From: a virus
DNA: 33,033 bases
Reading direction: 5' to 3' (one strand)
IMG/VR virus record: IMGVR_UViG_3300017758_000060
Span: 1 to 33,033 of that record
The notes beneath the pieces are model-generated. The model was not told the origin of the DNA. It saw only the letters and a program-made list of their open reading frames with translations, and made no database searches. Shown here in pieces: positions 6,373 through 32,371 of this stretch. The translations under genes and the position numbers were made by a program. Positions within the stretch are counted from its first letter, which is position 1. Every line of letters begins with the position of its first letter.

Positions 6373-7345
6373 AATATTTAGAAGGACAGTAAAAGATAGG
6401 AAAAGAGGTGCAAGTTATCAACTGCTCACACACATGGCAGAAGGTATAACAGCCTGTGGCGATAATCCCATAATGGTTAATGAAAAGTTAGAAGGAGAAT
6501 GGAGAGATAATGAAATGGAGCCAACGGCACCAATCGGTTGTATGTTTGGCTACGGAGGTAAGAACCAACCACATCATACAAAAGGACGTAGACGAGACCT
6601 TGTAGAACGTGCAAAGAAAAAAGGCATTTACATTATTACATTCGACGGTGGCATACTGTCTAGTTTTGGCAACACCATAACACACCCTAAACATCACTGG
6701 CGTGTAAGTTTATATTCTCCAATGAATAACGGAAACTTCTTAAGTGACAACAGTCCAGACGATCGTTGGAACATGATGAAAAATTTATGGAACATAAAAT
6801 ATGAGCCATGGCGTAAATCAGATCAAAGCGATCCTATACTGTTTGGCTTACAACCTAAAGACAACTGGAGCATGGACGAACTTGACCCGATAGATTGGTT
6901 TCATAGTGTGTATGAAAAATTAAGACCCATCACTGATCGTAAGTTTTTAATACGTCCACACCCAAATCACATGGCACAAATGATAAACAGGAAAGAAGAA
7001 TTTCCAAAGGACTGTGAACTGTTAGAAGGTCCTGCACACTTTGTAGGAGACGAGAAAAAGTACTATAGATTTAACTTCCAAGAAGCATTAAGTAATTGTC
7101 ATGCTTTTGTTACTCACAATTCTACTGCCAGCGTCGATTCCTGCGTTCGTGGAATCCCTACCTTTGTTACCTCAGATCTTGCACTTTGTTGGCCAGTAGC
7201 AAATAAAAATTTAAACAATATAGAAACACCCGAATATCCTGATAGAACACAGTGGGTTCACGACATAGGATATAAACTGTGGAGTACAGATGAAATTCGA
7301 AGTGGTGTGGTGTTCAAAAGATTCAAAGAGAAGTTAGGATTATAA
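6362..7345 (+). CDS. GT-B-like glycosyltransferase, family copy 3 of 4
   Basis: At 327 aa this is the longest of the four related proteins. Recognisable blocks are FGLQPKDNWS, LRPITDRKFLIRPHPNH, HAFVTHNSTASVDSCVRG, IPTFVTSD, LNNIETPEYPDR and DIGYKLWSTDEIRSG. The HNST..VDxxxxGIP segment is reminiscent of the donor site in capsule-type GT-B enzymes. The N-terminal part (IYIITFDGGIL; HWRVSLYSP) differs from the other copies, which suggests a different acceptor. It overlaps the preceding gene by 11 bases, and its TAA overlaps the ATG of the asparagine synthase-like gene. Confidence 0.65.
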   Translation: MDVEIFRRTVKDRKRGASYQLLTHMAEGITACGDNPIMVNEKLEGEWRDNEMEPTAPIGCMFGYGGKNQPHHTKGRRRDLVERAKKKGIYIITFDGGILSSFGNTITHPKHHWRVSLYSPMNNGNFLSDNSPDDRWNMMKNLWNIKYEPWRKSDQSDPILFGLQPKDNWSMDELDPIDWFHSVYEKLRPITDRKFLIRPHPNHMAQMINRKEEFPKDCELLEGPAHFVGDEKKYYRFNFQEALSNCHAFVTHNSTASVDSCVRGIPTFVTSDLALCWPVANKNLNNIETPEYPDRTQWVHDIGYKLWSTDEIRSGVVFKRFKEKLGL

Positions 7346-18921: not shown

Positions 18922-18941
18922 TATAAATACTGTTAAATATG
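18922..18941 (+). promoter_or_regulatory. T4-type late promoter (TATAAATA) plus a second TAAATA box
   Basis: An exact T4 late consensus TATAAATA lies at 18922-18929, and a second box TTAAATAT at 18933-18940, upstream of the structural gene at 18946. With the usual late spacing, start sites would fall near 18935 and 18945. The second lies one base before the ATG. There is no Shine-Dalgarno. Confidence 0.6.
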
Positions 18942-18945
18942 TATT

Positions 18946-19734
18946 ATGCAAACAGTACAAAGGTATTTAATAAATCAATTGGTAATAGCCTACATAAATG
19001 GTTTTACCGGGAGGAACTCAAAAGTGTACGATAGACGCCTAACACTGCATAGGGGAGTATCAAATCCAGTCTCATTCACGTTTAAAAACGAGGATCAGAA
19101 GGCACAGGACATAACTGCTAAAACTTACGAGTTTAATATTATCGATTCTGAGAGTCAAAAAGCAGTGATTACAAAAACACTTACAGTAATAGATGACGGG
19201 TCTACAGTGAGTACAAGGGGCGATGCTAGTTGTACTATCACAGAAGGCGACCTATTACCACTAGATGCCAAGTTTTATAACTTCTCGGTACGTGAAGTAA
19301 AAGCAGATGGTAGCAGGGAGATCACATATGCAGACACAGGATATGCGGCCGCTGGCACGATAGAAGTGTTGGATGGAGCGTACCCAGAGTTTGTATCAAG
19401 CACAGAAATTTCAAGTTTTACAGCAAGTGGTGGACTTAAATCATTAGGACATACATCAAGTGCCATTACTGCTAGACCTGGTATTAATAATAACAAGGCA
19501 TTGCACACTATTGCTGTGTATCCAAAAAACTTTTCAGGCACATTGAGAGTACAAGGAACAATGAGTGCTTCACCAAGTGACACTGATTACTTTGAAGTAA
19601 CGTCTACAACATTTTCAAATTCTTCTACGCCAAGCACACTAAATTTTACAGGAGTTTACCAAAACGTAAGATTTACTTGGGGGAACGACTCTGGTAATAC
19701 TGGAGTGATTGACAAAATCCTTTATAGACAGTAA
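18946..19734 (+). CDS. Virion/baseplate-type structural protein, BppU-like N-terminus
   Basis: A 262-aa beta-rich protein. Residues about 25-135 (KVYDRRLTLHRGVSNPVSFTF, then QDITAKTYEFNIID, then VITKTLTVIDDG, CTITEGDLLPLDAKFYNFSV) follow the plan of the BppU-type baseplate domain. There, an imposed-field domain with repeated strands is followed by a linker. The Ser/Thr-rich C-terminal half (about 150-262) ends in a jelly-roll-like region typical of fibres and surface-exposed virion proteins. It stands alone behind a late promoter, as expected for a virion gene. The exact virion position is not visible. Confidence 0.65.
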   Translation: MQTVQRYLINQLVIAYINGFTGRNSKVYDRRLTLHRGVSNPVSFTFKNEDQKAQDITAKTYEFNIIDSESQKAVITKTLTVIDDGSTVSTRGDASCTITEGDLLPLDAKFYNFSVREVKADGSREITYADTGYAAAGTIEVLDGAYPEFVSSTEISSFTASGGLKSLGHTSSAITARPGINNNKALHTIAVYPKNFSGTLRVQGTMSASPSDTDYFEVTSTTFSNSSTPSTLNFTGVYQNVRFTWGNDSGNTGVIDKILYRQ

Positions 19735-19744
19735 AATATAGGGT

Positions 19745-20758
19745 ATGAACCTGATCCAATCTACTATTCTGACAAGCCTACCTGCGGGTAGGAAAAAAAC
19801 ACCAAGTGGTTGGATTTCTTTCAACGCTCCTTGTTGTGTACATAACGGCGAAACTGCTGACAAGAAAAAACGTGGAGGGATAATGGCCGGTGCCGATGGC
19901 ACAGTCAGTTATCACTGTTTCAACTGTGGATTCAAAACAAGTTATGTGACGGGAAGAAAACTAACTTACAAGATGAGACAGTTCATGGGATACATTGGCA
20001 TACCCGACGACACAATACGTAAATTGGCCATAGAGGCCATGCGTGAAGAAGAGGGTGACGTAAAATATGAGAAGAAGAAATTCGTAACATTCAAAAACAA
20101 GACACTGCCCAAGAATGCACACAAACTGGACGTGTGGTTGGAGAAGTATATGGCCAACGATCTTACAGAACCACAATGGAACAAGATAGATGGATTATTG
20201 AAATATCTGGAAAGCAGAGGCATTGGTGCTGACTGGTATGACTTCATGTATTCACCTGATAAAACATGGGATATCTATCAAAGGTTACTGATACCGTTTT
20301 ACTGGCGAGGTGAGGTGGTTGGATTCACAGGTAGGATGTTTGAGGAGTCCCAAGGCGTGAAGTACTACACAGACGTGTGGCCTGGTTATGTGTTCAACAT
20401 GGATGTACAGGACTGGACAAGAAAGTTTGTGATAGTCACTGAAGGACCATTTGATGCGATAGCCGTTTCTGGTGTGAGCATACTGGGATCGGAGATAAAT
20501 GATACACAAAGAGAGTTGATAGATGCACTGGGCAGACAAGTTATAGTTGTGCCAGATAGAGATGCACCAGGAGAGAAACTGATTAACCAAGCAATAGAAT
20601 TTGGGTGGAACGTTGCTTTTCCAGAATGGGATAAAACGGTTGGCGATGTGGCGGATGCTGTGTTAAAATATGGTAGACTGTTTACTATACAATCGATACT
20701 GAAAACAACAGAATCAAGTAAACTGAAAATAGATTTAAAGAGAAAGATGTATGGCTGA
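19745..20758 (+). CDS. 61: DNA primase, T4 gp61-like
   Basis: At 337 aa this matches T4 gp61 (342 aa). The N-terminal zinc site is CCVHNG (C30, C31, H33) with HCFNCGF (C58, C61). The TOPRIM domain has VTEGPFDAIAVSG (231-243, catalytic Glu233) and VVPDRDAPGE (268-277, Asp271 and Asp273). The primase makes RNA primers for lagging-strand synthesis in a complex with the gp41 helicase, whose gene follows with an eight-base overlap. There is no good Shine-Dalgarno; ATG 19745 lies ten bases after the structural gene. Confidence 0.9.
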   Translation: MNLIQSTILTSLPAGRKKTPSGWISFNAPCCVHNGETADKKKRGGIMAGADGTVSYHCFNCGFKTSYVTGRKLTYKMRQFMGYIGIPDDTIRKLAIEAMREEEGDVKYEKKKFVTFKNKTLPKNAHKLDVWLEKYMANDLTEPQWNKIDGLLKYLESRGIGADWYDFMYSPDKTWDIYQRLLIPFYWRGEVVGFTGRMFEESQGVKYYTDVWPGYVFNMDVQDWTRKFVIVTEGPFDAIAVSGVSILGSEINDTQRELIDALGRQVIVVPDRDAPGEKLINQAIEFGWNVAFPEWDKTVGDVADAVLKYGRLFTIQSILKTTESSKLKIDLKRKMYG

Positions 20759-22175
20759 ATACACATTTGATGTACAAAAACTTTATATAGAGATGCTTCT
20801 TGCAGACGCAGAATCGTTTGCTAGGGCACAGAATATATTCAAACCAGAGTCGTTTGATCGTAAGTTGCAACCTATTGCAAAATTTGTCAAAGACTACATG
20901 GATGAATACAAGGTCATGCCTGATGTAGAACAGGTGAACGCAAAACATGATATAAAATTAAAATCAGCAAAAGATTTAGATCCTAGCCACTTCAATTGGT
21001 TGTTGGACGAATTTGAAACTTTTTCGAGACACAAGGCACTAGAACATGCGATACTTCAATCAGCGGACTTGCTGGAGAAGGGTGACTATGCTCCTGTTGA
21101 GGACATGGTCAAGGACGCAGTCAATGTTGGACTGACACGTGATCTTGGTACAGACTACTTTGAGGATCCGAAAGGAAGACTTGAGGCACTCAAGGCAAAC
21201 AACGGACAGATCAGCACTGGCTGGAACAACTTAGACAAGAAACTGTTTGGCGGTTTCAATCGTGGAGAACTAAACATCTTTGCAGGCGGATCAGGCGCAG
21301 GTAAGAGTTTGTTCTTGCAGAATCTTGCAGTTAACTGGGCACAGGCTGGTCTGAACGTTTGTTACATATCTTTTGAATTAAGTGAGCAACTGACTGCCAT
21401 GAGATTGGATGCAATGATGACTAACATTCCAACTAAGAAAGTTTTTCCAGAGATAGATAATGTTGAAATGAAGGTGAAGATGCTGAAGAAGAAATCAGGA
21501 AACTTGCAGATCAAATACTTGCCTAGTGGTAGTAACGTGCTAGACGTGAGAACATATCTTAAAGAACTAGAGCTCAAGAACAAAAAGAAAATAGATTGTA
21601 TCTTGATTGACTACTTGGATCTAATGATGCCAAAAAGCAAAAGGATAAGTCCAGCGGATCTGTTCATAAAAGACAAGTATGTGTCTGAGGAACTGAGGAA
21701 CTTGGTTGTTGAGAAACAGTGTGTGTTGGCCACTGCCTCACAGTTGAACAGGGCAAGTGTTGAAGAGATAGAGTTTGATCACTCTCACATCTCAGGCGGA
21801 CTGTCCAAGATACAGACAGCAGACAACGTGATAGGTATATTCACAAGTAGAGCAATGAAAGAACGTGGCAGATATCAAATACAGTTCATGAAAACTAGAA
21901 GTAGTAGTGGAGTGGGACAAAAAGTAGATTTAGAATTTGACGTGGACAGTTTAAGAATAAGAGACCTAAATGAGGAAGAAGCACAAAGTTATAATCAGCA
22001 AAGTAAAAATAAAATATACGATTCGTTAAAGCAAACATCAAAAGTATCCGGCAGTGACACACCTGAAGTTCCGGATCCACGGAAGGGTGATCCGTTAGGT
22101 AAAGTGAAGGGTACTGTCGAAGGTGGAAAACTGAGACAGTTGCTAAACGAATTACACTCAGACGAAGAACAGTAG
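20751..22175 (+). CDS. 41: Replicative DNA helicase, T4 gp41/DnaB-like
   Basis: At 474 aa it is almost exactly T4 gp41's length. The N-terminal helical domain (about 1-130) is followed by a RecA-type motor: Walker A GGSGAGKS (179-186), YISFELSE (205-212, H1a-like Glu), Walker B IDCILIDYLDLM (281-292), ATASQLNRASVEE and ISGGLSKIQTADNVIGI. gp41 is the hexameric 5'-3' helicase at the fork and works with gp61. The C-terminal about 75 residues are Lys/Glu/Ser-rich and probably flexible. The gene that follows overlaps by one base (TAGTG) but belongs to an accessory function. Confidence 0.93.
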   Translation: MAEYTFDVQKLYIEMLLADAESFARAQNIFKPESFDRKLQPIAKFVKDYMDEYKVMPDVEQVNAKHDIKLKSAKDLDPSHFNWLLDEFETFSRHKALEHAILQSADLLEKGDYAPVEDMVKDAVNVGLTRDLGTDYFEDPKGRLEALKANNGQISTGWNNLDKKLFGGFNRGELNIFAGGSGAGKSLFLQNLAVNWAQAGLNVCYISFELSEQLTAMRLDAMMTNIPTKKVFPEIDNVEMKVKMLKKKSGNLQIKYLPSGSNVLDVRTYLKELELKNKKKIDCILIDYLDLMMPKSKRISPADLFIKDKYVSEELRNLVVEKQCVLATASQLNRASVEEIEFDHSHISGGLSKIQTADNVIGIFTSRAMKERGRYQIQFMKTRSSSGVGQKVDLEFDVDSLRIRDLNEEEAQSYNQQSKNKIYDSLKQTSKVSGSDTPEVPDPRKGDPLGKVKGTVEGGKLRQLLNELHSDEEQ

Positions 22176-22986: not shown

Positions 22987-23910
22987 ATGAAAAACATCAT
23001 ATGGTTAATAGCACACCAACCAGAAAGACTGTTCCTAAGAACAGCAAAAGCGTTTGCAAAAATGCTTGAGAAAGAAACTAACGAAATCAAAATTGAGATA
23101 CTGACAACTGAACAATACAAGGAAAAATACGATCCTTCTTTCAGCAGAGAAAAGATTTTTGATTTAGTTAAAGATAACGTAATTCAAATGTCTCAGACAG
23201 AAGTATGGGAACTTGAAAGTTTGACACATGACAAAAACTGGCTAGTCTTTGACATGCCATGGTTATTCAAAAGTCATAGTCATGCAAGAAGAGTTCTTGA
23301 AGGTAAGATCGGTGCACAAATGAATAAAAGGTTAGCAAAACAGAGCGGAGTTAGAGGTCTTGCTTACACTTATTCAGGTGGATACAGATGTGTAGGATCA
23401 AAAGTTCTAATCAAAAACTTATCTGAGTTGCAAACAAGAAAACTAAGAGTTAACTCTAATCCAGTAACACAGGACTATTGGAAGTCGCTTGGTGTTGAAG
23501 TAACAAATCAAAATGTACACTTTGGTAGCAACGATCCCGTATTACCTGAGGACATACATGGTAAAGATACAACATACATCAGATACGAAAAAGCAGATGC
23601 ATGGTTACACACAGAACACTCTTTATTTTTAACAAACATTCTAGCAAGTGAGAAATTCTTTAACACTCTATCTGCAGACATGCAAGAAACATTTAAAAAA
23701 ATTGCATTCGAGGCGGCTAGACTAGAAAGAAAATGGTCTCAAGAAGACGCTGAAAATTTTGTTGAAACAGCAAAAGAAAGAAATGTACCAATCACAGAAT
23801 TATCCCAAGAGGACAAAGAAGTGATGAAAGAAAAATCAAAAACTGTATACGAAAAATGGTCTAAGGTTTTCTTCCCTGGTTTAATTGATGGTATCAATAA
23901 ATTAGCATAA
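22987..23910 (+). CDS. TRAP (DctP-type) solute-binding protein without signal peptide
   Basis: A 307-aa protein with the DctP ground plan: FLRTAKAFAKMLEKETNEIKIEIL (about 16-39), VIQMSQTEVW (about 65-74), VFDMPWLFKSHSHARRVLEG (about 87-106), GVRGLAYTYSGGYR (about 120-133) and LRVNSNPVTQDYWKSLGV. Then come FLTNI and a helical C-terminus. TRAP binding proteins carry organic acids in the periplasm to DctQM. Here the sequence starts directly at the first mature-type strand, with no signal peptide. It should stay in the cytoplasm or be packaged. The usual GVVDG-E substrate segment is not recognisable (IHGKDTTYIRYEKA instead). It has its own ribosome-binding site and terminator. Confidence 0.7.
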   Translation: MKNIIWLIAHQPERLFLRTAKAFAKMLEKETNEIKIEILTTEQYKEKYDPSFSREKIFDLVKDNVIQMSQTEVWELESLTHDKNWLVFDMPWLFKSHSHARRVLEGKIGAQMNKRLAKQSGVRGLAYTYSGGYRCVGSKVLIKNLSELQTRKLRVNSNPVTQDYWKSLGVEVTNQNVHFGSNDPVLPEDIHGKDTTYIRYEKADAWLHTEHSLFLTNILASEKFFNTLSADMQETFKKIAFEAARLERKWSQEDAENFVETAKERNVPITELSQEDKEVMKEKSKTVYEKWSKVFFPGLIDGINKLA

Positions 23911-23929: not shown

Positions 23930-23957
23930 AAAGGCGGCCACGGTCGCCTTTTTTTGT
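23930..23957 (+). terminator. Rho-independent terminator after the TRAP-type gene
   Basis: AAAGGCGGCC and GGTCGCCTTT pair with one G-T wobble around a short loop and run directly into a tract of Ts. This is a textbook intrinsic terminator and the only clear one in the window. It isolates the TRAP-type gene from the following operon. Confidence 0.85.
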
Positions 23958-23975: not shown

Positions 23976-23983
23976 TAAATATT
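23976..23983 (+). promoter_or_regulatory. Late-type TAAATATT box abutting a start codon
   Basis: TAAATATT lies at 23976-23983, followed by AGT and ATG 23987. With T4 late geometry (start six bases after the last A of TAAATA) transcription would begin exactly at the A of the ATG. It comes straight after the terminator, so a new unit must start here. Confidence 0.45.
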
Positions 23984-23986
23984 AGT

Positions 23987-24577
23987 ATGAAGTTATCTAA
24001 ATATTTAAACTGGCTTGATTCTGAAGAATTCGATTATTATTCAGACACAATAAAATTCGCCGACCACAACCAACCGGGACACACTTTCGTTAAGAATGTG
24101 AGACTACCGCAACTAGACTTCATTAAAAAAATTACCACCCAACCTAGAGCAGATGGCAAGGACCTGGAGAACGTATATACTTACGGTAGACATCCAATGT
24201 TGGATGTATGGGCAGATAAAACGTTTCCAGAATTAAAATACAAGCAGACACTTGTACAACTGCAAAGACCTGGAGACAAAGTGGATCCACATGTTGATAC
24301 CTTACACGGACAAATACGTAGTTGGATTGAAAAGGAACCGGAACTTGGTAATATAGAACACTCCATGGAAAATCCAAATCCAAATTTTAAAGCAAGAAGA
24401 TATTTTATAGGTGTGGAAGACCATGTCGCAGGACAAATGTTCAAACTAAACAATGTAGAATGGATATGGAAGAAAGGAGATACCATATCTCTGAATGTGT
24501 GGCGTGGTGTACATAATACTTTCAATGCAAGTAATGTGGATAGATACATAATAAAAATTACAGGATTAGAAAAATGA
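23987..24577 (+). CDS. 2-oxoglutarate/Fe(II) oxygenase-like protein
   Basis: A 196-aa protein with a double-stranded beta-helix signature. HVD (His102-x-Asp104) and a distal His176 (RGVHNTF) would bind iron, and Arg186 (DRYIIKITG) sits where 2-oxoglutarate is held. YFIGVEDHVAGQMF forms the middle strands. Such enzymes hydroxylate proteins, nucleotides or small molecules; the substrate is unknown. I start at ATG 23987, because an in-frame TTG at 23954 lies in the T-tract of the upstream terminator. It overlaps the methyltransferase-like gene by four bases (ATGA). Confidence 0.7.
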   Translation: MKLSKYLNWLDSEEFDYYSDTIKFADHNQPGHTFVKNVRLPQLDFIKKITTQPRADGKDLENVYTYGRHPMLDVWADKTFPELKYKQTLVQLQRPGDKVDPHVDTLHGQIRSWIEKEPELGNIEHSMENPNPNFKARRYFIGVEDHVAGQMFKLNNVEWIWKKGDTISLNVWRGVHNTFNASNVDRYIIKITGLEK

Positions 24578-25194
24578 ACCTAGAAAAAATATGGCATCAG
24601 TTCTCCCCTAGGCAGTACAGTTATCTAGGCGACATTGTTGGAAATTCAAGTGCCAAGAGTGTTTGTGAAATAGGAGCGTTCTGTGGCGGCGTTGCTAGGG
24701 CAGTATGGCAAGGAATAAAAGATACGGATAAAGAATTATATCTTATAGACAACTATGCATTTCTTCCAGAGCGTTTTAGAAAACATTTCTTCAAAGCAGT
24801 AAAGAAAACTATATCAAACAGCGACAGGATACACATGCTGTTGGAAAACAGTCACGAGTACGACTGGACAAAGCACGACTTCTTAATATTTTCTCATGCG
24901 GATTTTGATCATATGGAAAAAGATTTTGACCGACTGTTAGATTCAAAAGTAAAATGGGTAGCACTCGATTTGCCCAAGGGTTGTTTCAAGAGAACAGCAA
25001 AAATGCTAGATGCAATTACAAACAAAAAATTATTCCCCAGTTATTATGTCGACGGTATGATAATCTGCGGGCCGACGACTCCTTGCACTTTGCCTACACA
25101 AGAAGGAACTTTTCTAGGACACAAGGTAAGATATGTTGAAAAGAAAAAAGGTTCATACAACAAAGCAGTAGAAGACATAGTAAAAAATTTGTAA
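24574..25194 (+). CDS. Class I SAM-dependent methyltransferase-like protein
   Basis: A 206-aa protein. SVCEIGAFCGGVARAVW (about 29-45) is a motif I-like Gly-rich SAM loop. KELYLIDNYAFLP (about 53-65) ends in the acidic residue expected to hold the SAM ribose, and HDFLIFSHADFDHMEKDFDRLL (about 99-120) and VKWVALDLPKGCF follow in Rossmann order. This fits the Methyltransf_24-like group, which often acts in sugar and natural-product loci. Substrate unknown. It is coupled to the oxygenase-like gene upstream and to the radical SAM gene downstream (TAATG). Confidence 0.6.
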   Translation: MNLEKIWHQFSPRQYSYLGDIVGNSSAKSVCEIGAFCGGVARAVWQGIKDTDKELYLIDNYAFLPERFRKHFFKAVKKTISNSDRIHMLLENSHEYDWTKHDFLIFSHADFDHMEKDFDRLLDSKVKWVALDLPKGCFKRTAKMLDAITNKKLFPSYYVDGMIICGPTTPCTLPTQEGTFLGHKVRYVEKKKGSYNKAVEDIVKNL

Positions 25195-26369
25195 TGACTA
25201 AATGTAATCGGCCAACGTTGGATGTAACAATATCACCTGACGGTAATTTTAGAATTTGTTGTTACGGTACTACGTTGGGAAACATCGAGGGACAAACCAT
25301 ACGAGAATTTTTCAACAGTGATGCAGTAAAAGAAATCAGCAATACTTTGAACAGTGGCACACGTCATTCTTACTGTTCTGCATGTTGGAACCTCGAGGAC
25401 CTAGGACATGATTCTTATAGATTAGTAAGCGAGCCTTACAAAAGCGAAGGAGGATTTCCTGCCATGCTTGATATAAAATTTAATAATATTTGCAATCTTG
25501 CTTGTAAAATGTGTGACCCTGTGTCGTCAAGCAAACTTGCTACCGAATGGAAACAACTAGGGTGGACAGATCAAAACACACCTTATCTAGACACAAATTC
25601 AAAAACAATATTGCCGGATTGGCAAAATACAAATTATCAAACTAACAAAATTAATAAGATATGGGATGAAATTATAGACAATATAAAATTTGTAAAAAGA
25701 ATAAAGTTTACAGGAGGCGAACCATTCATGACCAAAGAAATATTACAATTTCTTAAACGTATTCCTGTTGAGGACAGAAAACATATAGATCTTGCATGGA
25801 CCACAAACGGTACACAAGACTTGAGTATTTGGGAATCGACTCTGCTGACTTTTAAAAAAAATAGGATAGGAATAAGTTGCGATGGCGAGCAGGACACATA
25901 CAACTACATAAGATATCCTGGTACTTGGACAGAATGGCTAGAAAGTTCAAAAAAAATAATGGACAAATATCAATCACATATAAATTTTACAGTCACAGTT
26001 TTTAATATCTTTAATTTAAAAAAATTTGTTTCCTGGGCAAAAACAAACGGTTATCTGAACAAACTTAGATTTGCATATGAAAATATTCCTCTAGTATATG
26101 CTCCAATGGTACTGCCTAGATACCTACGTGTAAGAGCGGTAGAAGACATAATGTATGCAATAAAGAACATGGACAAGTCAGAAGTAAGAATGCAACTACG
26201 TGCTATTGCAGATCACTTGCACAGTATCAACGATGATGTACATGACAAACACTGGCATCATTTTCTCAAGATCACACACCAACAAGACAAGCACAGGGAT
26301 ATGAGCATAGCAAACATATGGCCCGATGTGCCAGAAATTCGAGAGCGTAAATTACCAAATACAGCGTAA
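25194..26369 (+). CDS. Radical SAM protein with N-terminal twitch/SPASM-like cysteines, copy 1
   Basis: A 391-aa protein. CNLACKMC (C100, C104, C107) is the CxxxCxxC cluster motif for the SAM-cleaving [4Fe-4S] centre; FTGGEPFMTKE (GGEP 174-177) and DLAWTTNGTQ follow as expected. Before it, C4, C22, C23, C61 and C64 (ICCYG, CSACWNLEDLGHDSYR) look like an auxiliary iron-sulfur site of the twitch/SPASM type placed N-terminally. Such enzymes modify peptides, sugars or tRNA by radical chemistry. It follows the oxygenase and methyltransferase genes with tight coupling. Substrate unknown. Confidence 0.85.
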   Translation: MTKCNRPTLDVTISPDGNFRICCYGTTLGNIEGQTIREFFNSDAVKEISNTLNSGTRHSYCSACWNLEDLGHDSYRLVSEPYKSEGGFPAMLDIKFNNICNLACKMCDPVSSSKLATEWKQLGWTDQNTPYLDTNSKTILPDWQNTNYQTNKINKIWDEIIDNIKFVKRIKFTGGEPFMTKEILQFLKRIPVEDRKHIDLAWTTNGTQDLSIWESTLLTFKKNRIGISCDGEQDTYNYIRYPGTWTEWLESSKKIMDKYQSHINFTVTVFNIFNLKKFVSWAKTNGYLNKLRFAYENIPLVYAPMVLPRYLRVRAVEDIMYAIKNMDKSEVRMQLRAIADHLHSINDDVHDKHWHHFLKITHQQDKHRDMSIANIWPDVPEIRERKLPNTA

Positions 26370-26378
26370 GTTAAGAAA

Positions 26379-26393
26379 TAACGCGAAGCGTTA
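26379..26393. repeat. Very short stable hairpin with GCGAAGC core
   Basis: TAACGC-GAA-GCGTTA forms a perfect 6-bp stem with a GAA loop, and its centre is GCGAAGC, known as an exceptionally stable DNA mini-hairpin. It lies just after the first radical SAM gene. No T-tract follows on the plus strand, so it is not a standard terminator. Confidence 0.6.
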
Positions 26394-26433
26394 AAAAGCG
26401 TAAAGCAGGCCTGACCTGAACGATAATTACCTT

Positions 26434-26445
26434 TATAAATGGGAG
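26434..26445 (+). promoter_or_regulatory. Late-like TATAAATG box and ribosome-binding site before a 58-aa frame
   Basis: TATAAATG (26434-26441) matches seven of eight bases of the T4 late consensus. It is followed at once by GGGAG (26441-26445), seven bases before ATG 26453. The 83-base spacer otherwise holds only the GCGAAGC hairpin. Confidence 0.4.
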
Positions 26446-26452
26446 TTACACA

Positions 26453-26629
26453 ATGGGCATACACTACGACTACAAGAGCACCAGGGGTGACAAGAAATTA
26501 CGTAAGCAACAGGAACGTGAGGAGCGAAGGCGTAAGAAGAAGCAGACAACAGTTGCCAAGCAAGACGAGTACACTGTGCCAGAAGACGTGGTGCTGACTC
26601 TGGACATGATCACGGACCCCAATAAATGA
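26453..26629 (+). CDS. 58-aa charged hypothetical protein next to a radical SAM gene
   Basis: The frame starts MGIHYDYKSTRGDKKLRKQQ, continues with a very basic stretch (EREERRRKKKQ), and ends with an acidic/hydrophobic tail (YTVPEDVVLTLDMITDPNK). GGGAG lies seven bases before the ATG, and the TGA overlaps the ATG of the next radical SAM gene (ATGA), so it is a good gene by context. It shares the raised GC content of that gene. A precursor-peptide role for radical SAM modification is conceivable but unsupported: there is no Cys, and no typical leader/core boundary. Confidence 0.6.
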   Translation: MGIHYDYKSTRGDKKLRKQQEREERRRKKKQTTVAKQDEYTVPEDVVLTLDMITDPNK

Positions 26630-27642
26630 TAAATCAGAGACTGTTTGACAGATACAACATCGACACCAACAAGGACCTCAAGTTAAAGAACATGTGTCCA
26701 CGTCCCAAGGACACAATACTGATCGACAAGATGGGATCGTGTTACGCCTGTGAATGCCAGTCATGGTTGCCACAGAGCATAGGTAACCTGCAGATCAAGT
26801 CCTTGTCAGACATCATAGGCAACGACATGCACCAGCACTTGCAGGGATCGATCGCGGATGGCACGTACCGTTACTGCAACGAACACCAGTGTTCCTATCT
26901 CAAGAGTTCTGTATTGCATGGCCAGCCGGATCGCATACAGCACCTGAGATTGGCCATAGACGACAGTTGCAATCTGCGTTGTCCCAGTTGTCGGAAGGGC
27001 CTGGTATTCCACAAGGAGGGCTCCGCATACAACCTGGGCATCAAACTCGCGGACAGCATCAACGACTGGTTGTACGATTACCCGCACCCCATACAGGTGC
27101 ACATAGGTTCGGATGGTGATCCATTCGCTTCACACGTGTACAGGCACTTCATGGAGCAGACCCCCGAGCGTGACAACATCAAGTACAGCATACTGACCAA
27201 TGCACTGATGATCAAAGATTTTTCTCATCGCGTTCCCTACGTGATCCGGAACCTCAAGGAACTGGGAGTGAGCATAGATGGTGCCACCAGGGAGACCTAT
27301 GAGAAACTGCGACTGGGTGGCAGGTGGGAAAAGATCAACGAGAACCTCCAACACATCTCTGAACTGAAGGACAAGCACGGATTCCGATTCATCATGCACT
27401 ACGTGGTACAGAAGGACAACTACCACGAGATGGAAGACATAGTGCTGTTGGGTGAAAAGTACAACGCCGATCGTGTTTGGTTCAGCAGGATACAGGACTG
27501 GAACACATGGGGCAATTTCGCTGAACACAACATATTCGACACGCAACATCCACAGCACAACGATTACAGGACATGCCTGGACAAACTTGTCAAACTAAAC
27601 AGCAATATAGTAGAAGAAGCGACCCTAAGACAACTGCATTAG
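26626..27642 (+). CDS. Radical SAM protein with N-terminal cysteine cluster, copy 2 (GC-rich)
   Basis: A 338-aa protein. CNLRCPSC (C115, C119, C122) is the radical SAM cluster. Upstream cysteines C24, C39, C42, C44, C84 and C89 (SCYACECQSW, CNEHQC) suggest an auxiliary cluster. The GGEP position reads GSDGDPF, a departure from the other two copies. LGVSIDGATRETYEKLR is a typical radical SAM strand. Codon choice is strikingly GC-rich compared with neighbours, which points to recent acquisition together with the 58-aa frame. The substrate is not visible. The last 18 bases overlap the opposite-strand gene. Confidence 0.85.
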   Translation: MINQRLFDRYNIDTNKDLKLKNMCPRPKDTILIDKMGSCYACECQSWLPQSIGNLQIKSLSDIIGNDMHQHLQGSIADGTYRYCNEHQCSYLKSSVLHGQPDRIQHLRLAIDDSCNLRCPSCRKGLVFHKEGSAYNLGIKLADSINDWLYDYPHPIQVHIGSDGDPFASHVYRHFMEQTPERDNIKYSILTNALMIKDFSHRVPYVIRNLKELGVSIDGATRETYEKLRLGGRWEKINENLQHISELKDKHGFRFIMHYVVQKDNYHEMEDIVLLGEKYNADRVWFSRIQDWNTWGNFAEHNIFDTQHPQHNDYRTCLDKLVKLNSNIVEEATLRQLH

Positions 27643-28245
27643 GTCTAGAGGATCTTTCATTGGCATCGTGGCCAACATGATCCTAGGATACTTTGCATCG
27701 GGTCCGGGCATCACTCTGTGTGGGATCAAACTGTTGAACACTATGGGACATCGGTGCATGTTGTAGGCAACACGTAACGGATACAAGGTATCCACTGTTT
27801 CGTGTATGCTGGCAAGGTTGTAACACGCCTTGCCACTGAAATCGTTGATCTCCTCTGGAAATTTTTCTAGTTCATCAATGGGTATGTCATACCATTCTGT
27901 GTACACGTCGTCGGTGTTGAGTATGGGGAAATTTATTTTGAAGTTACGTTCCGGAGAACCATGGTGCAGTGCGAATCCTCCTGTCATGGATTCGGTCAAC
28001 ACTCCCACTGTTATCTCCTGCACAGGGATCTTCACGTGTCTAAAATACTTTATCAGTGCCGGACACGACCTTGCCATGCTCTTGTAATCTATTTGCATCC
28101 AGAATCCCTCAGACGTTTTGTCGTCTAAGAAATCAGTATTTTTTTCTACCCACTGCAGAACTTCTTTCTGAATATCTTTTAGATTGTATACAGGCAGTTC
28201 ATGTACTGCTTTATGTTTTGTTTGATCTCCTAAATAATCAATCAT
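27625..28245 (-). CDS. Double-stranded beta-helix (2OG-oxygenase/cupin-like) protein
   Basis: A 206-aa protein. The core reads GGFALHHGSPERNFKINFPILNTDDVYTEWYDI (about 88-120), then a strand region ending VFNSLIPHRVMPGPDAKYPRIMLATMP (about 169-195). A distal His followed by Arg on neighbouring strands is the arrangement of 2OG/Fe(II) oxygenases. The proximal HxD is not clear (HHGS instead), so activity is uncertain. Phage proteins of this general look are common next to sugar- or amino-acid-modifying genes. It reads away from the SDR gene across a 43-base spacer containing a long inverted repeat. Confidence 0.5.
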   Translation of the reverse strand: MIDYLGDQTKHKAVHELPVYNLKDIQKEVLQWVEKNTDFLDDKTSEGFWMQIDYKSMARSCPALIKYFRHVKIPVQEITVGVLTESMTGGFALHHGSPERNFKINFPILNTDDVYTEWYDIPIDELEKFPEEINDFSGKACYNLASIHETVDTLYPLRVAYNMHRCPIVFNSLIPHRVMPGPDAKYPRIMLATMPMKDPLDLMQLS

Positions 28246-28290
28246 TTGAAATATTTATAGGAGCCCTATCTGTGATTAAATATTTCAAAT
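28244..28290. repeat. 14-bp perfect inverted repeat carrying divergent promoter boxes and both start codons
   Basis: ATTTGAAATATTTA (28244-28257) and TAAATATTTCAAAT (28277-28290) are exact inverted copies around a 19-base centre. Each arm reads TAAATATTTCAAATG toward its own gene, so both divergent genes begin with the same sequence. The minus arm extends to an exact TATAAATA (28259-28252). It looks like a symmetric bidirectional late promoter. Confidence 0.7.
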
Positions 28291-28810
28291 GAAGATAGCA
28301 ATCACAGGACACAAAAAAGGAATAGGACAGGAATTCGCCAAGCAACTCTCAGCCAAAGGACATGAGATAGTCGGTCTTTCTCGAAGTGACGGTGAGAACA
28401 TACGAAGAACGGCACACTCGGCATCACTGATAGAACCTTGTGACCTTCTTATAAACAACGCAATTAGTTTTTACGCACAAACTGAACTGCTATTCGAAGT
28501 GTGGCATAGATGGAAAGAGTCTGATAAGAAACACTACATCTGGAATATATCTACTGAACTGTGTCTAGAGGAAAACGATATACCCCTCAACGGGCTGACC
28601 ATGAGAGAATCCATGCAATACAGGAATCAAAAAATGGCGTTGGAGTTGGCACACAAACAGTTGAACGCTCAACAGAGCAACACACAAATGACCTTATTGA
28701 GACCGGGCAGTATCAAAACTCAAACGTTCAGTGATCCAAACGGCATAACAGCAGAGGAATATGTTAGCAGTGTGTTGTCTACCATAGATCTAGATGAAAC
28801 GGTGGATTAA
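28289..28810 (+). CDS. Short-chain dehydrogenase/reductase, short form
   Basis: A 173-aa protein with SDR hallmarks: TGHKKGIG (6-13) as the nucleotide loop, LLINNA (53-58), Ser88 in WNISTE, and Tyr111-x3-Lys115 (YRNQKMALE) completing the catalytic set. RPGSIKT follows in the usual place. It is much shorter than a typical 250-residue SDR; deletions seem to lie between the loop and NNA. It oxidises or reduces a hydroxyl/keto group with NAD(P), and nucleotide sugars are possible substrates given the context. It overlaps the next gene by 17 bases. Confidence 0.8.
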   Translation: MKIAITGHKKGIGQEFAKQLSAKGHEIVGLSRSDGENIRRTAHSASLIEPCDLLINNAISFYAQTELLFEVWHRWKESDKKHYIWNISTELCLEENDIPLNGLTMRESMQYRNQKMALELAHKQLNAQQSNTQMTLLRPGSIKTQTFSDPNGITAEEYVSSVLSTIDLDETVD

Positions 28811-29357
28811 ACTTCTAGATGCTGATTGCAGAGTGGTGAGGATCAAAAACGAATGGGTCTACCCTATCTTCAAGAATGCTTTCACAAGTCTAGAGACAGT
28901 GTCTGAACAGGAAATATTCAATGAGGAAATTTCACAATGCCAAAGCATAGTGGTGTTCCTCAGAAACCAAGAACAGCGATTTGTTACAGGGGTTGGAGAA
29001 TACTTAGACAACAGCAACAACATGAATCGTAGTCACACAGTGAACGGCATGCCAGGGAAGGTACAGCAAGAAATGATAGATAAAATTCTTGATGGACAAA
29101 TTTTGGACAGGCATTTCTGTCCACAGGCAGTATGGCTGTTGCATCTTTCTAAATATTTTCAAGGCACAGTTTTCATAAAAGATATGTCACAGGCAAAACA
29201 CTACACACCGTTAACGATGAAGGCAGGCAAATATATAAATTTTAAATTAAAGGTGCCGGAGTTCTATTTGTCAGATGATAAAAAATTAGAGAAGTTCATA
29301 GGAAAAAAAATTAACATACAGTCGATTGTAAAGGAGTTTGACAGTGTATTGTCCTAG
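28794..29357 (+). CDS. Sulfotransferase-like (family 2 type) protein
   Basis: A 187-aa protein. WVYPIFKNAFTSLE (about 21-34) resembles the 5'-phosphosulfate loop of sulfotransferase-2 proteins (PIxKNAxTS). SIVVFLRNQEQRFVTGVGEY (51-70) resembles their FVRDPxxRFxSGY strand and helix, though the Asp-Pro pair is replaced by Asn-Gln. That change in the PAPS 3'-phosphate region could mean altered or lost activity. It sits between the SDR and a radical SAM gene, overlapping both. A diverged P-loop protein with another role is the alternative. Confidence 0.5.
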   Translation: MKRWIKLLDADCRVVRIKNEWVYPIFKNAFTSLETVSEQEIFNEEISQCQSIVVFLRNQEQRFVTGVGEYLDNSNNMNRSHTVNGMPGKVQQEMIDKILDGQILDRHFCPQAVWLLHLSKYFQGTVFIKDMSQAKHYTPLTMKAGKYINFKLKVPEFYLSDDKKLEKFIGKKINIQSIVKEFDSVLS

Positions 29358-30387
29358 ACTAAAACACTTTGTAAGGCTTAACCAAGATGGTTCTATAGGC
29401 AAGTGCGGACACATGGTCAATGCAGTAGGATTCAAAACATTTGACGAACTAGACAAAAGCAAATGGCTAAATGACCTCGAGGACACTATGTCAAAGGACG
29501 AGTGGCCGGAGGAGTGTGTGCGTTGTAAACAAACAGAAGAAATAAACGGAGAAAGTGTAAGGACCAAAAGCATAGACAGACATAAAATATTACATCCACG
29601 TAAGGATGATTACCTTGTTGTTGGGGGTGTGTTGGACAACATATGTAACAGTGCTTGTCAGTCTTGTAACGCGGGCCTGAGTACCAAGATAGGTAGTCTA
29701 CAGTCAAAGAAATACACACGTGTGAACAACTACGAAACTTTTTGGAAACTACCACAGAACAGGATACTGGAAGTAGATGTCAACGGAGGCGAACCCACCG
29801 CAAGTAAGAATTACAAAAAAATTTTAGCCAACCTTCCTGTTAACACAAAAATAGTAAGGATGAACACCAATGGTTCAAGAATGATCAAAGAACTTGAGGG
29901 TATACTTAGAAACAGAACAATGGTCATAGTAACTTTGAGCTTTGATGGTACAGGTGACGTGCATGACTATGTACGTTGGCCCATTAAATGGAAGAACTAC
30001 ATTAAGAGTGTTGTCGCATATAAAAATTTACAAAAACAATACCCATTGTTGAAATTAAACTGTTGGACAACTGTAAGCAGTTTGAACGTTGAGAACTTAC
30101 CCGGCATATTAGATTTTGTAACAGAACAAGGGTTGGATCACAACTGGGCGTTTTTAAATGACCCAGATGCCTTGAATGTAAAATATAAAAACAAGTTTAC
30201 TGTAAGTGCTAAAAAAAAATTAAGCAAGTCTTCCTACAGTGTTTGTAGAGATATAGCAAAAAAGATAGCAGTCGACCAAGACAATAGCAAACTGCTTGAA
30301 TACTTTATTAAGAGACAGGATACGTTGCGTAATATATCTATAGATGATTATTTTAACTTAGAACCTAGTTGTTTTAAAAACAGTTGA
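29344..30387 (+). CDS. Radical SAM protein with N-terminal twitch/SPASM-like cysteines, copy 3
   Basis: A 347-aa protein. CNSACQSC (C101, C105, C108) is the cluster motif, with VNGGEPTASKNY (GGEP 148-151) and VRMNTNGSRM after it. N-terminal C3, C21, C58 and C61 (CGHMVNAVGFKTFDEL, ECVRCKQTEEINGESVR) parallel copy 1. I choose GTG 29344: AAGGAG at 29331-29336 is seven bases upstream, whereas the in-frame TTG at 29338 would leave only one base. It overlaps the sulfotransferase-like gene, and its last 40 bases overlap the SGNH gene on the other strand. Substrate unknown. Confidence 0.85.
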   Translation: MYCPRLKHFVRLNQDGSIGKCGHMVNAVGFKTFDELDKSKWLNDLEDTMSKDEWPEECVRCKQTEEINGESVRTKSIDRHKILHPRKDDYLVVGGVLDNICNSACQSCNAGLSTKIGSLQSKKYTRVNNYETFWKLPQNRILEVDVNGGEPTASKNYKKILANLPVNTKIVRMNTNGSRMIKELEGILRNRTMVIVTLSFDGTGDVHDYVRWPIKWKNYIKSVVAYKNLQKQYPLLKLNCWTTVSSLNVENLPGILDFVTEQGLDHNWAFLNDPDALNVKYKNKFTVSAKKKLSKSSYSVCRDIAKKIAVDQDNSKLLEYFIKRQDTLRNISIDDYFNLEPSCFKNS

Positions 30388-31067
30388 GCAAAACGTTCAT
30401 GATGTTCTACCCCGTAGTGTACACCATCCCCGGCTAGGCTTGGGTCCTTATACTGTTGTCTTTGTTCGAACCTATCCCAATATGGCCAACAGTTTTTAAT
30501 TGTGTAATGTTCTAATACATTTGGTCCTTTGATATACTCATGGTATGATTCTTGTGCAAAGCAATGTAATAAGGTTGCATCGTTCTTTTCCGCATACTTT
30601 TCCACAAAGAAAACATTCTTGAGGAAGTTATGTTTGTCAGTATGTTCGTTTTCATTCTTAAGTTCTTCGTCATAACTCATCATACTCTGTGGGTACGTGT
30701 GCAACTTTTCCCTGCGACTCCAGAAAGGCCAGCACACAATTATTATCCTAGGGTCTAATAATTTCTCACAACCATACAATATCCTTGTTACCTTGTCGGC
30801 ACTTGCACCAGGCTGACCTAGATTCCAATACCTTAATCTTTTTGTATTGTGCTGTGATATAAAATGAACCCAGTGCTCATTGTCGGCATTGCCTTGTCCA
30901 AAGGTATGACTGCATCCAAGCACAACAACATTCTTCTTGCCCTCCGGCATTGGATCCCATTCGGGACATCGGTATCCGGAAGAATTTACTTTGTAGTCTT
31001 TAAGCGGTGGGCGATCCATTGCAACACTGACCGGCAGTTCTCTATCTGTGTAGTAACCGTATTTCAT
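30348..31067 (-). CDS. SGNH/GDSL-type hydrolase-like protein, second copy
   Basis: A 239-aa protein. VVVLGCSHTFGQG (47-59; nucleophile candidate Ser53), a Gly/Asn block WNLGQPGASADK (about 81-92), and DGVHYGVEHHERF near the C-terminus (Asp and His of the triad) fit SGNH hydrolases. The block-III Asn is not obvious (IIVCWPFWSRRE instead). Similar phage proteins occur among sugar-modifying genes. It is only distantly like the SGNH protein at 3743-4432. It is the last gene of a minus-strand unit that begins with three tRNA genes, and it shares one base with the gene upstream. Confidence 0.7.
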   Translation of the reverse strand: MKYGYYTDRELPVSVAMDRPPLKDYKVNSSGYRCPEWDPMPEGKKNVVVLGCSHTFGQGNADNEHWVHFISQHNTKRLRYWNLGQPGASADKVTRILYGCEKLLDPRIIIVCWPFWSRREKLHTYPQSMMSYDEELKNENEHTDKHNFLKNVFFVEKYAEKNDATLLHCFAQESYHEYIKGPNVLEHYTIKNCWPYWDRFEQRQQYKDPSLAGDGVHYGVEHHERFAQLFLKQLGSKLK

Positions 31068-31369
31068 TATGAACTACCTTTTGATAAATTGATCTGCTGG
31101 TTGATCCTATGCGATATGTACAGTTCCATGAATCCCATCCGGCCTTTGCGTCCGAACATAGTAGGATATTTCATCTTGGCCAACATAAGATACTTCTCAT
31201 CTGCATAACAGTCTAGTCTGTGTTTGTGTTTGGGATATCTAAATTCCAATGCTTTTTTATTCCAAAGATATTTGCAGAATTTTGATTCGTCTAGTAGCAT
31301 CTGTTCTGCCAACGTTGGTGGAATGTTTTCTCTGTGTTCTTTTAATTTAATGGAATAAAATTTCTTCAC
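31067..31369 (-). CDS. 100-aa hypothetical protein with GTG start
   Basis: A basic protein (MKKFYSIKLKEHRENIPPTLAEQMLLDE and onward) with aromatic and Cys residues in the middle (SKFCKYLWNKKALEFRYPKHKHR). There is no recognised domain. The GTG start at 31369 lies inside an 8-bp inverted repeat. Initiation at the next Met (about residue 24) would lose a well-formed N-terminus. It lies 22 bases downstream of tRNA-Glu on the same strand and is coupled to the SGNH gene, so it is probably carried on the tRNA transcript. Confidence 0.55.
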   Translation of the reverse strand: MKKFYSIKLKEHRENIPPTLAEQMLLDESKFCKYLWNKKALEFRYPKHKHRLDCYADEKYLMLAKMKYPTMFGRKGRMGFMELYISHRINQQINLSKGSS

Positions 31370-31387
31370 ACAATTAATTATTGTGTG
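31367..31387. repeat. Inverted repeat CACACAAT-N5-ATTGTGTG over the GTG start
   Basis: Two perfect 8-bp arms (31367-31374 and 31380-31387) flank a five-base loop. The left arm contains the start codon of the minus-strand gene at 31369. As RNA it could fold and hide that start, or mark the 3' processing boundary of tRNA-Glu, which ends five bases away. Confidence 0.55.
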
Positions 31388-31391
31388 CGAG

Positions 31392-31466
31392 TGGTAGTCC
31401 CTAGGAGAATCGAACTCCTCTTTGCGAGATGAAAACCCGCTGTCCTAACCGATAGACGAAGGGACC
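31392..31466 (-). tRNA. tRNA-Glu (TTC)
   Basis: A full cloverleaf on the minus strand: acceptor GGTCCCT/AGGGACT (with one G-T closing pair), anticodon stem GCGGG/CTCGC with loop TTTTCAT giving anticodon TTC, and T-arm AGGAG-TTCGATT-CTCCT. Discriminator A and encoded CCA are at 31394-31392. Confidence 0.92.
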
Positions 31467-31469
31467 TTT

Positions 31470-31545
31470 TGGTGGAGGATACAGGGATCGAACCTGCGAC
31501 CTCCTGAATGCAAATCAGGCGCTCTCCCGGCTGAGCTAATCCCCC
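31470..31545 (-). tRNA. tRNA-Ala (TGC)
   Basis: A full cloverleaf on the minus strand: acceptor GGGGGAT/ATCCTCC, D-arm TAGCTCAGCCGGGAGAGC, anticodon stem CCTGA/TCAGG with loop TTTGCAT (anticodon TGC), T-arm GCAGG-TTCGATC-CCTGT, and encoded CCA. Only three bases separate it from tRNA-Glu, implying one precursor. Confidence 0.93.
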
Positions 31546-31578
31546 AAACCAACCAAATGTTCCAAGACCATTAAGTTC

Positions 31579-31620
31579 TTTGGTATAAATGGTAATAATG
31601 GCAAATTTGGTATAAGTGGT
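31579..31620. repeat. Direct repeat of the tRNA-Thr 3' flank
   Basis: TTTGGTATAAATGGT (31579-31593) and TTTGGTATAAGTGGT (31606-31620) differ at one base and start 27 bases apart. The second copy contains the encoded CCA and discriminator of tRNA-Thr, so the first looks like a duplicated tRNA 3' edge with no tRNA body attached. Confidence 0.6.
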
Positions 31621-31692
31621 GCCGCTTCACGGATTCGAACCGCGGACCTACTGATTACAAATCAGTTGCTCTACCAACTGAGCTAAAGCGGC
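31617..31692 (-). tRNA. tRNA-Thr (TGT)
   Basis: A full cloverleaf on the minus strand: acceptor GCCGCTT/AAGCGGC, D-arm TAGCTCAGTTGGTAGAGC, anticodon stem ACTGA/TCAGT with loop TTTGTAA (anticodon TGT), T-arm CGCGG-TTCGAAT-CCGTG, and encoded CCA. It is the first gene of the minus-strand tRNA unit. Confidence 0.93.
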
Positions 31693-31701
31693 GTCACAGT
31701 A

Positions 31702-31707
31702 ATTATA
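31702..31707 (-). promoter_or_regulatory. -10 box for the tRNA unit
   Basis: On the minus strand TATAAT (31707-31702) ends nine bases before the 5' end of tRNA-Thr. No convincing -35 box is seen at the usual spacing. It could be a weak promoter or depend on a phage activator. Confidence 0.4.
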
Positions 31708-31734
31708 GTACACGATAAACCCGCTTTAGTCTAC

Positions 31735-31837
31735 CGTTTAGACGCACACAGAAGCACACACACGCATGGTAAAAGTATTCTAGGATAAGTTTATACATTC
31801 GTGTTAATATATGTACTTTAAGGCGTTTAAACGCACA
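31735..31837. repeat. Spacer with a 14-bp direct repeat and a 12-bp palindrome
   Basis: CGTTTAGACGCACA (31735-31748) and CGTTTAAACGCACA (31824-31837) differ at one base. The second is nested in a perfect palindrome, GCGTTTAAACGC (31823-31834). They lie in the gene-free 205-base spacer between the tRNA unit and the plus-strand gene at 31898, where operator sites would be expected. Confidence 0.5.
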
Positions 31838-31863
31838 TATGTTCTATACGCATATCAGCCTTG

Positions 31864-31891
31864 TTGACAATGCATAAATATTTTGTATAAT
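31864..31891 (+). promoter_or_regulatory. Perfect-consensus sigma70 promoter
   Basis: TTGACA (31864-31869), 16 bases, TATAAT (31886-31891): both boxes match consensus at all positions. Transcription would start about 31898, which is the A of the downstream ATG. A TAAATA box (31875-31880) lies in the spacer. Confidence 0.75.
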
Positions 31892-31897
31892 AAAGAT

Positions 31898-32083
31898 ATG
31901 AGAGACACAAAACTATTACAAACCTATCATGCAAAACAAATGCGTGAAAACAAAGAGAAGCAACTTCAAAGGATGCTTCGTAAAGAAGTTGAGACAGGTG
32001 CGAGTGGTACACAAAAATATAGAATCAAAGCAGGTGCCAATGCTGGTAAGATAGCAGAAGGCTTTCAAAAAACACAATCATAA
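31898..32083 (+). CDS. 61-aa basic helical hypothetical protein
   Basis: The protein begins MRDTKLLQTYHAKQMRENKE and continues with a Lys/Arg/Gln-rich helix (KQLQRMLRKEVETGASG), then TQKYRIKAGANAGKIAEGF. I start at ATG 31898; an in-frame TTG at 31883 lies inside the promoter's -10 region. With the perfect promoter directly upstream, the mRNA would be leaderless and strongly made by host polymerase from the start of infection. A small, basic early protein is a candidate host-takeover factor, but no domain is recognised. Confidence 0.65.
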   Translation: MRDTKLLQTYHAKQMRENKEKQLQRMLRKEVETGASGTQKYRIKAGANAGKIAEGFQKTQS

Positions 32084-32114
32084 TCATACGTTAGATACAC
32101 ACAACGCCCGGTAG

Positions 32115-32122
32115 TAAATATT
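32115..32122 (+). promoter_or_regulatory. Late-type TAAATATT box abutting a start codon
   Basis: TAAATATT (32115-32122) is followed by ATT and GTG 32126. With T4 late geometry the start site would be the G of that GTG, which matches the arrangement at 23976-23987. This favours GTG 32126 over ATG 32138 as the start. Confidence 0.4.
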
Positions 32123-32125
32123 ATT

Positions 32126-32371
32126 GTGAGCAAAGACATGGAAAGAAAAATAATATTGTTACTGATACTGATCTTAATCGGACTTGGTCTATCTGGCTGT
32201 GTCAAGCCACAGGTTAAACATGATCATCCTAAGCAACCTACAACCTTAGAAACTATTGCCAAACTTGACGCTATCGGAAAGGTACTAGGATGTATGTTTG
32301 ATCCTACACCGTGTCAAAAGAAAAAAGAGTTAGCAGAAACAGAAAATCTTAAGTCTGAAGTCCAGGAGTAA
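32126..32371 (+). CDS. Predicted lipoprotein
   Basis: An 81-aa protein from GTG 32126, or 77 aa from ATG 32138. Basic residues (MERK) precede a hydrophobic helix (IILLLILILIGLGL) that ends in the lipobox LSGC. The Cys would be lipidated and the rest exported. The mature part (VKPQVKHDHPKQPTTLETIAKLDAIGKVLG...) is hydrophilic with two further cysteines. Phage lipoproteins of this size include outer spanins and superinfection-exclusion proteins; nothing here decides between them. Its last 23 bases overlap an opposite-strand gene. Confidence 0.65.
   Translation: MSKDMERKIILLLILILIGLGLSGCVKPQVKHDHPKQPTTLETIAKLDAIGKVLGCMFDPTPCQKKKELAETENLKSEVQE

Follow-up and report, generated by a model that had tools for sequence, protein, structure and literature searches.

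Can a T4-type late promoter lie so close to a gene that the RNA polymerase would start on the initiation codon itself? The question is raised by a 33-kb IMG/VR fragment of an uncultured bacteriophage (IMGVR_UViG_3300017758_000060; "the window" below is this whole stretch of 33,033 nucleotides (nt), 62% A+T), in which TAAATA boxes stand only a few bases before five genes. In T4 numbering the initial T of TAAATA is at −11 of the transcript start; all offsets below are counted from that T to the start codon. We call a box flush, or near, when it is so close that the predicted RNA start about coincides with the start codon, and far when it lies at −40 to −21. From the arrangement of the DNA we consider it likely (a probability of roughly 0.8) that these are T4-late-type promoters set flush, which would give leaderless or near-leaderless mRNAs lacking a Shine-Dalgarno (SD) sequence beside late genes with leaders. 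According to the proposed mechanism, a TATA-like box recognised by gp55, without a −35 element, would place the RNA polymerase start at the AUG or 1–3 nt before it, and the resulting mRNAs, leaderless or nearly so and without SD, would be translated via recognition of the 5′-AUG. The same phage would keep ordinary leadered late genes, with a box at −40 to −21 plus an SD, and the lineage of the window would carry the same design over to sigma-70-type promoters (TATAAT at −12).

The five boxes of the original prediction are all present where it had placed them, four on the plus strand (18934, 23976, 28277 and 32115) and one on the minus strand (28257). Their offsets are −12 (ATG 18946), −11 (ATG 23987), −12 (ATG 28289), −12 (ATG 28245, minus strand) and −11 (GTG 32126), which in T4 numbering correspond to leaders of 1, 0, 1, 1 and 0 nt, in agreement with the claim that transcripts would start at, or one base before, the start codon. 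Nor does any of the five genes carry an SD-like 4-mer at −18 to −5, as had likewise been claimed. When the frequency was set against chance, boxes at −14 to −10 were found before 5 of the 44 window genes, compared with a mean of 0.49 and a maximum of 4 in shuffled sequence (n=2,000).

The box at 18934..18939 (+) precedes a virion structural protein gene (18946..19734, +; phrog_14467), a homologue of EST35_0222 of bacteriophage PA5oct. The two products align with their N-termini in register and synteny agrees; the PA5oct product has been detected in virions by electrospray ionization tandem mass spectrometry (ESI-MS/MS), and its gene has its own TATAAATA at −13. The block TATAAATACTGTTAAATATGTAYTATG around the 18934 box is near-invariant in 67 relatives. 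A canonical TATAAATA late-type box (18922..18929, +) also stands before gene 18946, with a predicted 11-nt leader, and both boxes are kept in 70 of 70 related genes. The box at 23976..23981 (+), with a predicted leader of 0, belongs to a gene of 196 amino acids without assigned function (23987..24577, +), the start of which is backed by orthologues in the relatives L006 (63%) and L036 (36%), both aligned from residue 1. About 20 nt before this box ends an intrinsic terminator (GGCGGCCACGGTCGCC plus a T-run; 23930..23955, +), and L006 has a similar terminator 5′ of the orthologous box. The boxes at 28277..28282 (+) and 28252..28257 (−; within TATAAATA from 28259) serve a divergent pair, the rightward half of which is an NAD-dependent epimerase/short-chain-dehydrogenase-like gene (28289..28810, +; box at −15 in the L003 and L005 orthologues) and the leftward half a gene of 206 amino acids without assigned function (27625..28245, −). 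The last box (32115..32120, +) precedes a small gene (32126..32371, +) that is lipoprotein-like by its sequence (VSKDMERKIILLLILILIGLGLSGC...) and has homologues in relatives; in two of these, L003 and L012, the box is at −12 of an ATG.

The window's helicase (20751-22175) and primase (19745-20758) are T4-superfamily proteins, and the helicase has many close relatives among IMG/VR contigs; its nearest named relatives are in PA5oct and similar phages, then Agrobacterium phage Atu_ph07. We collected 80 relatives via the helicase and read larger contig parts for 27 of them; open reading frames (ORFs) were called from the first ATG, and the proteins were grouped so that each family counted once (281 families, 1.53 Mb). 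Dinucleotide shuffles and the reverse complement of the hexamer provided the chance controls; the reversed hexamer ATAAAT was dropped as a control, being contaminated by ATAAATA. Over 81 related IMG/VR contigs, TAAATA was found at −13 to −10 of the ATG in 26.8 of the 281 families (cluster-weighted), against a mean of 1.7 in the shuffles (standard deviation 1.3, maximum 7) and a lineage background of about 0.28 families per position. The histogram of boxes breaks off sharply at −10/−11, the point at which T4 geometry sets +1 on the A of AUG, and among internal ATGs, used as a control, only 22 of 25,965 had the box.

Could such an excess arise by chance in A/T-rich DNA, or from ORF calling, which takes the first ATG after a stop while the box itself contains TAA? 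The A+T content of the window favours the former, and for the latter it can be said that a TAA at −12 is in frame and would end an upstream extension. However, the shuffles speak against chance, and so does a count made without ORF calls, in which 173 ATGs stood at +11 to +13 of 641 distinct TAAATA sites where about 37 were expected (ATG was enriched at these positions, GTG not clearly, and TTG weakly, at +11). Moreover, the in-frame TAA at −12 continues as ATA in 11.1 of 23.1 families, as compared with 0–1.2 at other in-frame offsets; the sites of the cultured Pelagibacter phage HTVC008M are nearly all at −11, out of frame, and its starts are annotated; and T4, with a similar G+C content, has no flush box. 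On these tests we rejected chance and ORF-start bias, whose probability is negligible. The excess at this spacing is seen in the window, in its lineage and in two independent phages that carry gp55, contrary to the chance-level frequency that would have counted against the original prediction.

The sequence around the box differs between groups. In the window lineage, where the upstream TA of TATAAATA is mostly absent, 58% of the boxes have a T directly before TAAATA; in Kyanoviridae 86% have an A there. No strong conservation is visible over the 8 bases preceding the box, the positions that this comparison covered. We also noted a gene divergent from that of gp55 that has TAAATA at exactly −11 in about 10 different phages (L258-L337; for example L282:9233-9901, L288:9222-9890 and L321:9230-9892). 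Separately, a small gene family with GGTAAATACGTTATGGC (at ~1.2-3.4 kb of L289, L292-L294, L300, L301, L305, L309, L312, L333 and L334) has its box at −10, one base nearer than T4 geometry permits; in this family transcription would have to start 10 nt from the T, unless the box is not the promoter.

An alternative that retains the box but not the promoter is that TAAATA at −12 is an A/T-rich, unstructured context for translation initiation, while the transcripts would originate further upstream. Starts that are leaderless or lack an SD generally prefer A/T-rich surroundings, and about one in five flush genes is no more than 10 nt away from the gene before it, making read-through possible. Yet in a blind ranking of hexamers the exact word TAAATA had the highest enrichment (19-fold), TATAAT and SD words also being near the top, and the isomers of TAAATA showed no flush placement. 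TAAATA also occurs at −40 to −21 before SD genes in the same genomes, and T4 orthologues of flush genes have their box at late-promoter distance. Conserved terminators, furthermore, cut some flush genes off from upstream transcription: in several families, including that of the window's 23976 box, the terminator T-run begins 22–41 nt before the ATG, leaving little room beyond the box, and in a tail-tube-like family a conserved T-run begins 22–26 nt before it. (Our scan of all genes for terminators was strict and found few, and the argument rests on individual conserved families.) With a sigma-70 box peaking at the same spot (below), this alternative appears very unlikely.

Near and far boxes form two start classes, which differ in their SD counts. 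An SD-like 4-mer was found in 0.1 of 28.3 near-class genes of the lineage, in 1/24 in G041 (a 364-kb relative of the window that carries gp55 and a helicase matching the window's at 60%), in 0/7 in Mosig and in 2/15 in HTVC008M. In the far class an SD was present in 29/47 genes of G041, 12/19 of Mosig and 8/10 of HTVC008M, and in 24/29 of T4, which has far boxes only.

It might still be that the boxes are late promoters whose genes truly start further downstream, leaving normal SD leaders. Some flush genes have no characterised protein product, and the 18946 family has its second box with the 11-nt leader, both of which suit this explanation. Codons 2–13, however, already evolve as coding sequence, with 62% of substitutions at third positions (17 families), and an alternative in-frame SD plus ATG within 40 codons is nearly absent (0.6 of 23 flush genes in the lineage, 0/23 in G041 and 0/12 in HTVC008M). 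In addition, in orthologues that lack the box the alignment starts at the same residue 1, and the flush starts of HTVC008M are its annotated starts. A downstream start is thus very improbable. The base before the AUG points the same way for transcription: bacterial RNA polymerase prefers Y(−1)R(+1) at its start site, and at −11 boxes this base was a pyrimidine in 21/23, 13/13 and 21/22 cases, compared with about half in other genes (Fisher p = 2.8e-4, 4.6e-5 and 8.9e-6). Together, the third-position bias, the lack of alternative starts and this pyrimidine support transcription that would start at the AUG. The sequences show the identity, placement, enrichment and conservation of the box, the lack of an SD, a coding sequence that begins at this AUG, and gp55 in relatives; that gp55 of the window lineage reads the box, that +1 falls exactly as predicted and that translation is leaderless, we infer.

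Several observations weigh against flush late promoters. The SD deficit of near-class genes is in part imposed by the box, which occupies the room that an SD would need. In the window lineage −12 is the commonest offset, which predicts a 1-nt leader instead of none, and G041 and other relatives have a −10 class, in which a rigid T4 geometry would start the RNA inside the AUG. Leaderless GUG initiation is weak in E. coli, and gene 32126, starting with GTG, would need it. The gp55 profiles phrog_234 and phrog_12791 had no match on the window or the contigs of its near relatives, which are short fragments. The sliding-clamp profile phrog_223 likewise had no match in the window lineage, G041, PA5oct or Atu_ph07, a null result that is uninformative because even PA5oct and Atu_ph07 lack a match.

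The flush design is not restricted to late boxes. In the window, a sigma-70 promoter TTGACA-N16-TATAAT (12/12 matches; 31864..31891, +) has its TTGACA at 31864 and its TATAAT at 31886-31891, 7 nt before the ATG of a gene of 61 amino acids (31898..32083, +), so that +1 would be the A of ATG 31898. The arrangement is kept in the relative G016; a TAAATA at 31875, inside the spacer, is possibly an overlapping late box. Throughout the lineage TATAAT peaks exactly at −12 (7.9 family-equivalents, 5.8 of them with a −35-like element 15–19 nt upstream), whereas in G041 TATAAT boxes are mainly at −40 to −31; of the phages compared, only the window lineage appears to have carried the design over to promoters of the sigma-70 type. 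Since sigma-70 promoters are also flush there, the "routine leaderless late transcripts" of the original prediction were described too narrowly by the word late. "Routine" applies to a minority class of about 10% of families; the majority of genes are either SD-led or internal to operons.

The divergent pair 28245(−)/28289(+) shows how compact the arrangement can become. Both boxes and both start codons lie in a symmetrical divergent promoter (28242..28292, without strand), a 16-bp perfect inverted repeat with arms at 28242-28257 and 28277-28292. In relatives, a single palindrome, TATTTAAATA, faces both ways in a gap of 25–29 bp between divergent genes (L003:14965-14991, G030:6231-6261), and in HTVC008M the gap between gp2 and gp4 is 26 bp. 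If late promoters do without a −35 element, divergent promoters could become this compact.

Is the flush class a property of T4-type phages at large? We analysed all phages with one pipeline, and give the counts as genes with boxes at −40 to −21/−13 to −11. These were 26/0 for T4 (0 of 246 genes flush), 21/0 for Syn9, 25/0 for S-PM2, 65/2 for Atu_ph07, 36/1 for PA5oct, 24/3 for P-SSM4, 21/3 for Melnitz, 19/6 for Mosig, 9/12 for HTVC008M and 41/16 for G041. The flush class is thus absent from T4 and the two cyanophages Syn9 and S-PM2, minor in others, and strong in HTVC008M, G041 and, above all, the window lineage. In T4 the box stands 10–25 bases further from the gene, before a normal leader. 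That this is unlike T4, as had been suggested, holds even orthologue by orthologue: the gp53 box lies at −11 without SD in HTVC008M but at −34 with AGGAGG in T4, and gp4 has an SD and its box at −32 in T4, whereas its HTVC008M orthologue has the box at −11 and retains no more than an AGGA at −5, too near the start to serve. We found gp55 in PA5oct, Atu_ph07, the G041 contig, HTVC008M, Syn9 and T4, and the HTVC008M annotation also carries gp33 and gp45.

Among the flush genes of HTVC008M are many for minor components of the virion (gp2, gp4, gp48, gp53, gp3, gp13 and the tape measure), while SD leaders precede its capsid gp23, sheath gp18, tube gp19, portal gp20 and protease gp21. In G041 the large terminase, a structural protein of the virion and a tail-tube-like protein are among the flush genes, and in PA5oct the case is clearest for the orthologue of window gene 18946. 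A more far-reaching and doubtful proposal is that some marine T4-type phages run two translational classes under one late sigma factor, the distance from box to AUG setting virion stoichiometry, and that the window lineage applies this design also to promoters of the sigma-70 type and to symmetrical divergent ones of 25–43 bp. Low-copy parts (baseplate, neck, tape measure, terminase) would then be made from leaderless mRNAs and high-copy parts (capsid, sheath, tube) from SD-led ones. Leaderless starts may go with low copy number, an attractive link with few genes behind it.

Late transcription of T4 is a textbook system with SD-led messages; if flush late promoters are real, leaderless translation would carry part of the virion in a widespread group of marine phages, which includes viruses of some very abundant ocean bacteria. 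With flush boxes, start codons in these genomes could also be checked by a simple rule. In pelagimyophages, attempts to detect late promoters are reported to have been unsuccessful (PMC7029224), and the flush arrangement may help to explain this failure of a method made for cyanophages.

The remainder of the window holds other features. Three leftward tRNA genes (Glu, Ala, Thr) lie at 31392-31692, and a nucleotide search of the window against named phages gave tRNA matches only, from tRNA-Thr. At 22987-23910 this phage fragment has a match to DctP, a TRAP-transporter solute-binding protein (Pfam PF03480, E 1e-31), for which a search for bacterial homologues found no close one. A full-length glutamine-dependent asparagine-synthase-like gene (7345-9069) belongs to a block that also contains further, apparently metabolic, genes.

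Late promoters of the T4 type and leaderless mRNAs are each known; as far as we found, their systematic fusion is undescribed, the search for reports of leaderless late transcripts in T4-type phages having covered open-licence papers, so that its negative outcome is weak evidence. Nor did we find mapped 5′ ends for these phages. The late promoters of T4 (TATAAATA; gp55/gp33/gp45; Geiduschek and Kassavetis 2010, PMC2988020) resemble the flush boxes in being of the TATA type and in their use for virion genes, and gp55 is present in relatives of the window; the distance of about one helical turn between box and RNA start, and the absence of a −35 element, would be further predicted likenesses; unlike the flush boxes, those of T4 lie 40–21 nt before the ATG, with an SD in 24/29 and none at −13 to −11. 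The cyanomyovirus late promoters (NATAAATA; S-PM2, Syn9; PMC2984593) share the box family and the gp55/gp33/gp45 logic, but Syn9 and S-PM2 are without flush boxes and P-SSM4 has three. Similar in design are HTVC008M and its relatives Mosig and Melnitz, HTVC008M having gp55 and 12 flush genes, mostly at exactly −11 and many of them late virion genes; these phages differ from the window lineage in belonging to Kyanoviridae, in a box that is usually ATAAATAG rather than TTAAATAT, and in a TATAAT that is not flush. PA5oct (Arenbergviridae) and Atu_ph07 have gp55 and share with the window a leftward small gene followed by structural protein, primase and helicase, and PA5oct has a flush box before the same structural gene, but their late-type boxes are otherwise leadered. 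The predicted geometry of bacterial leaderless genes is also like that of the flush boxes. Such genes, in which a −10 element precedes the start codon by about 12 nt (PMC3160421; for mycobacteria PMC4633059), likewise lack an SD; they are read by host sigma factors, whereas here the element is mainly a phage-type late box, joined in the window lineage by sigma-70 boxes.

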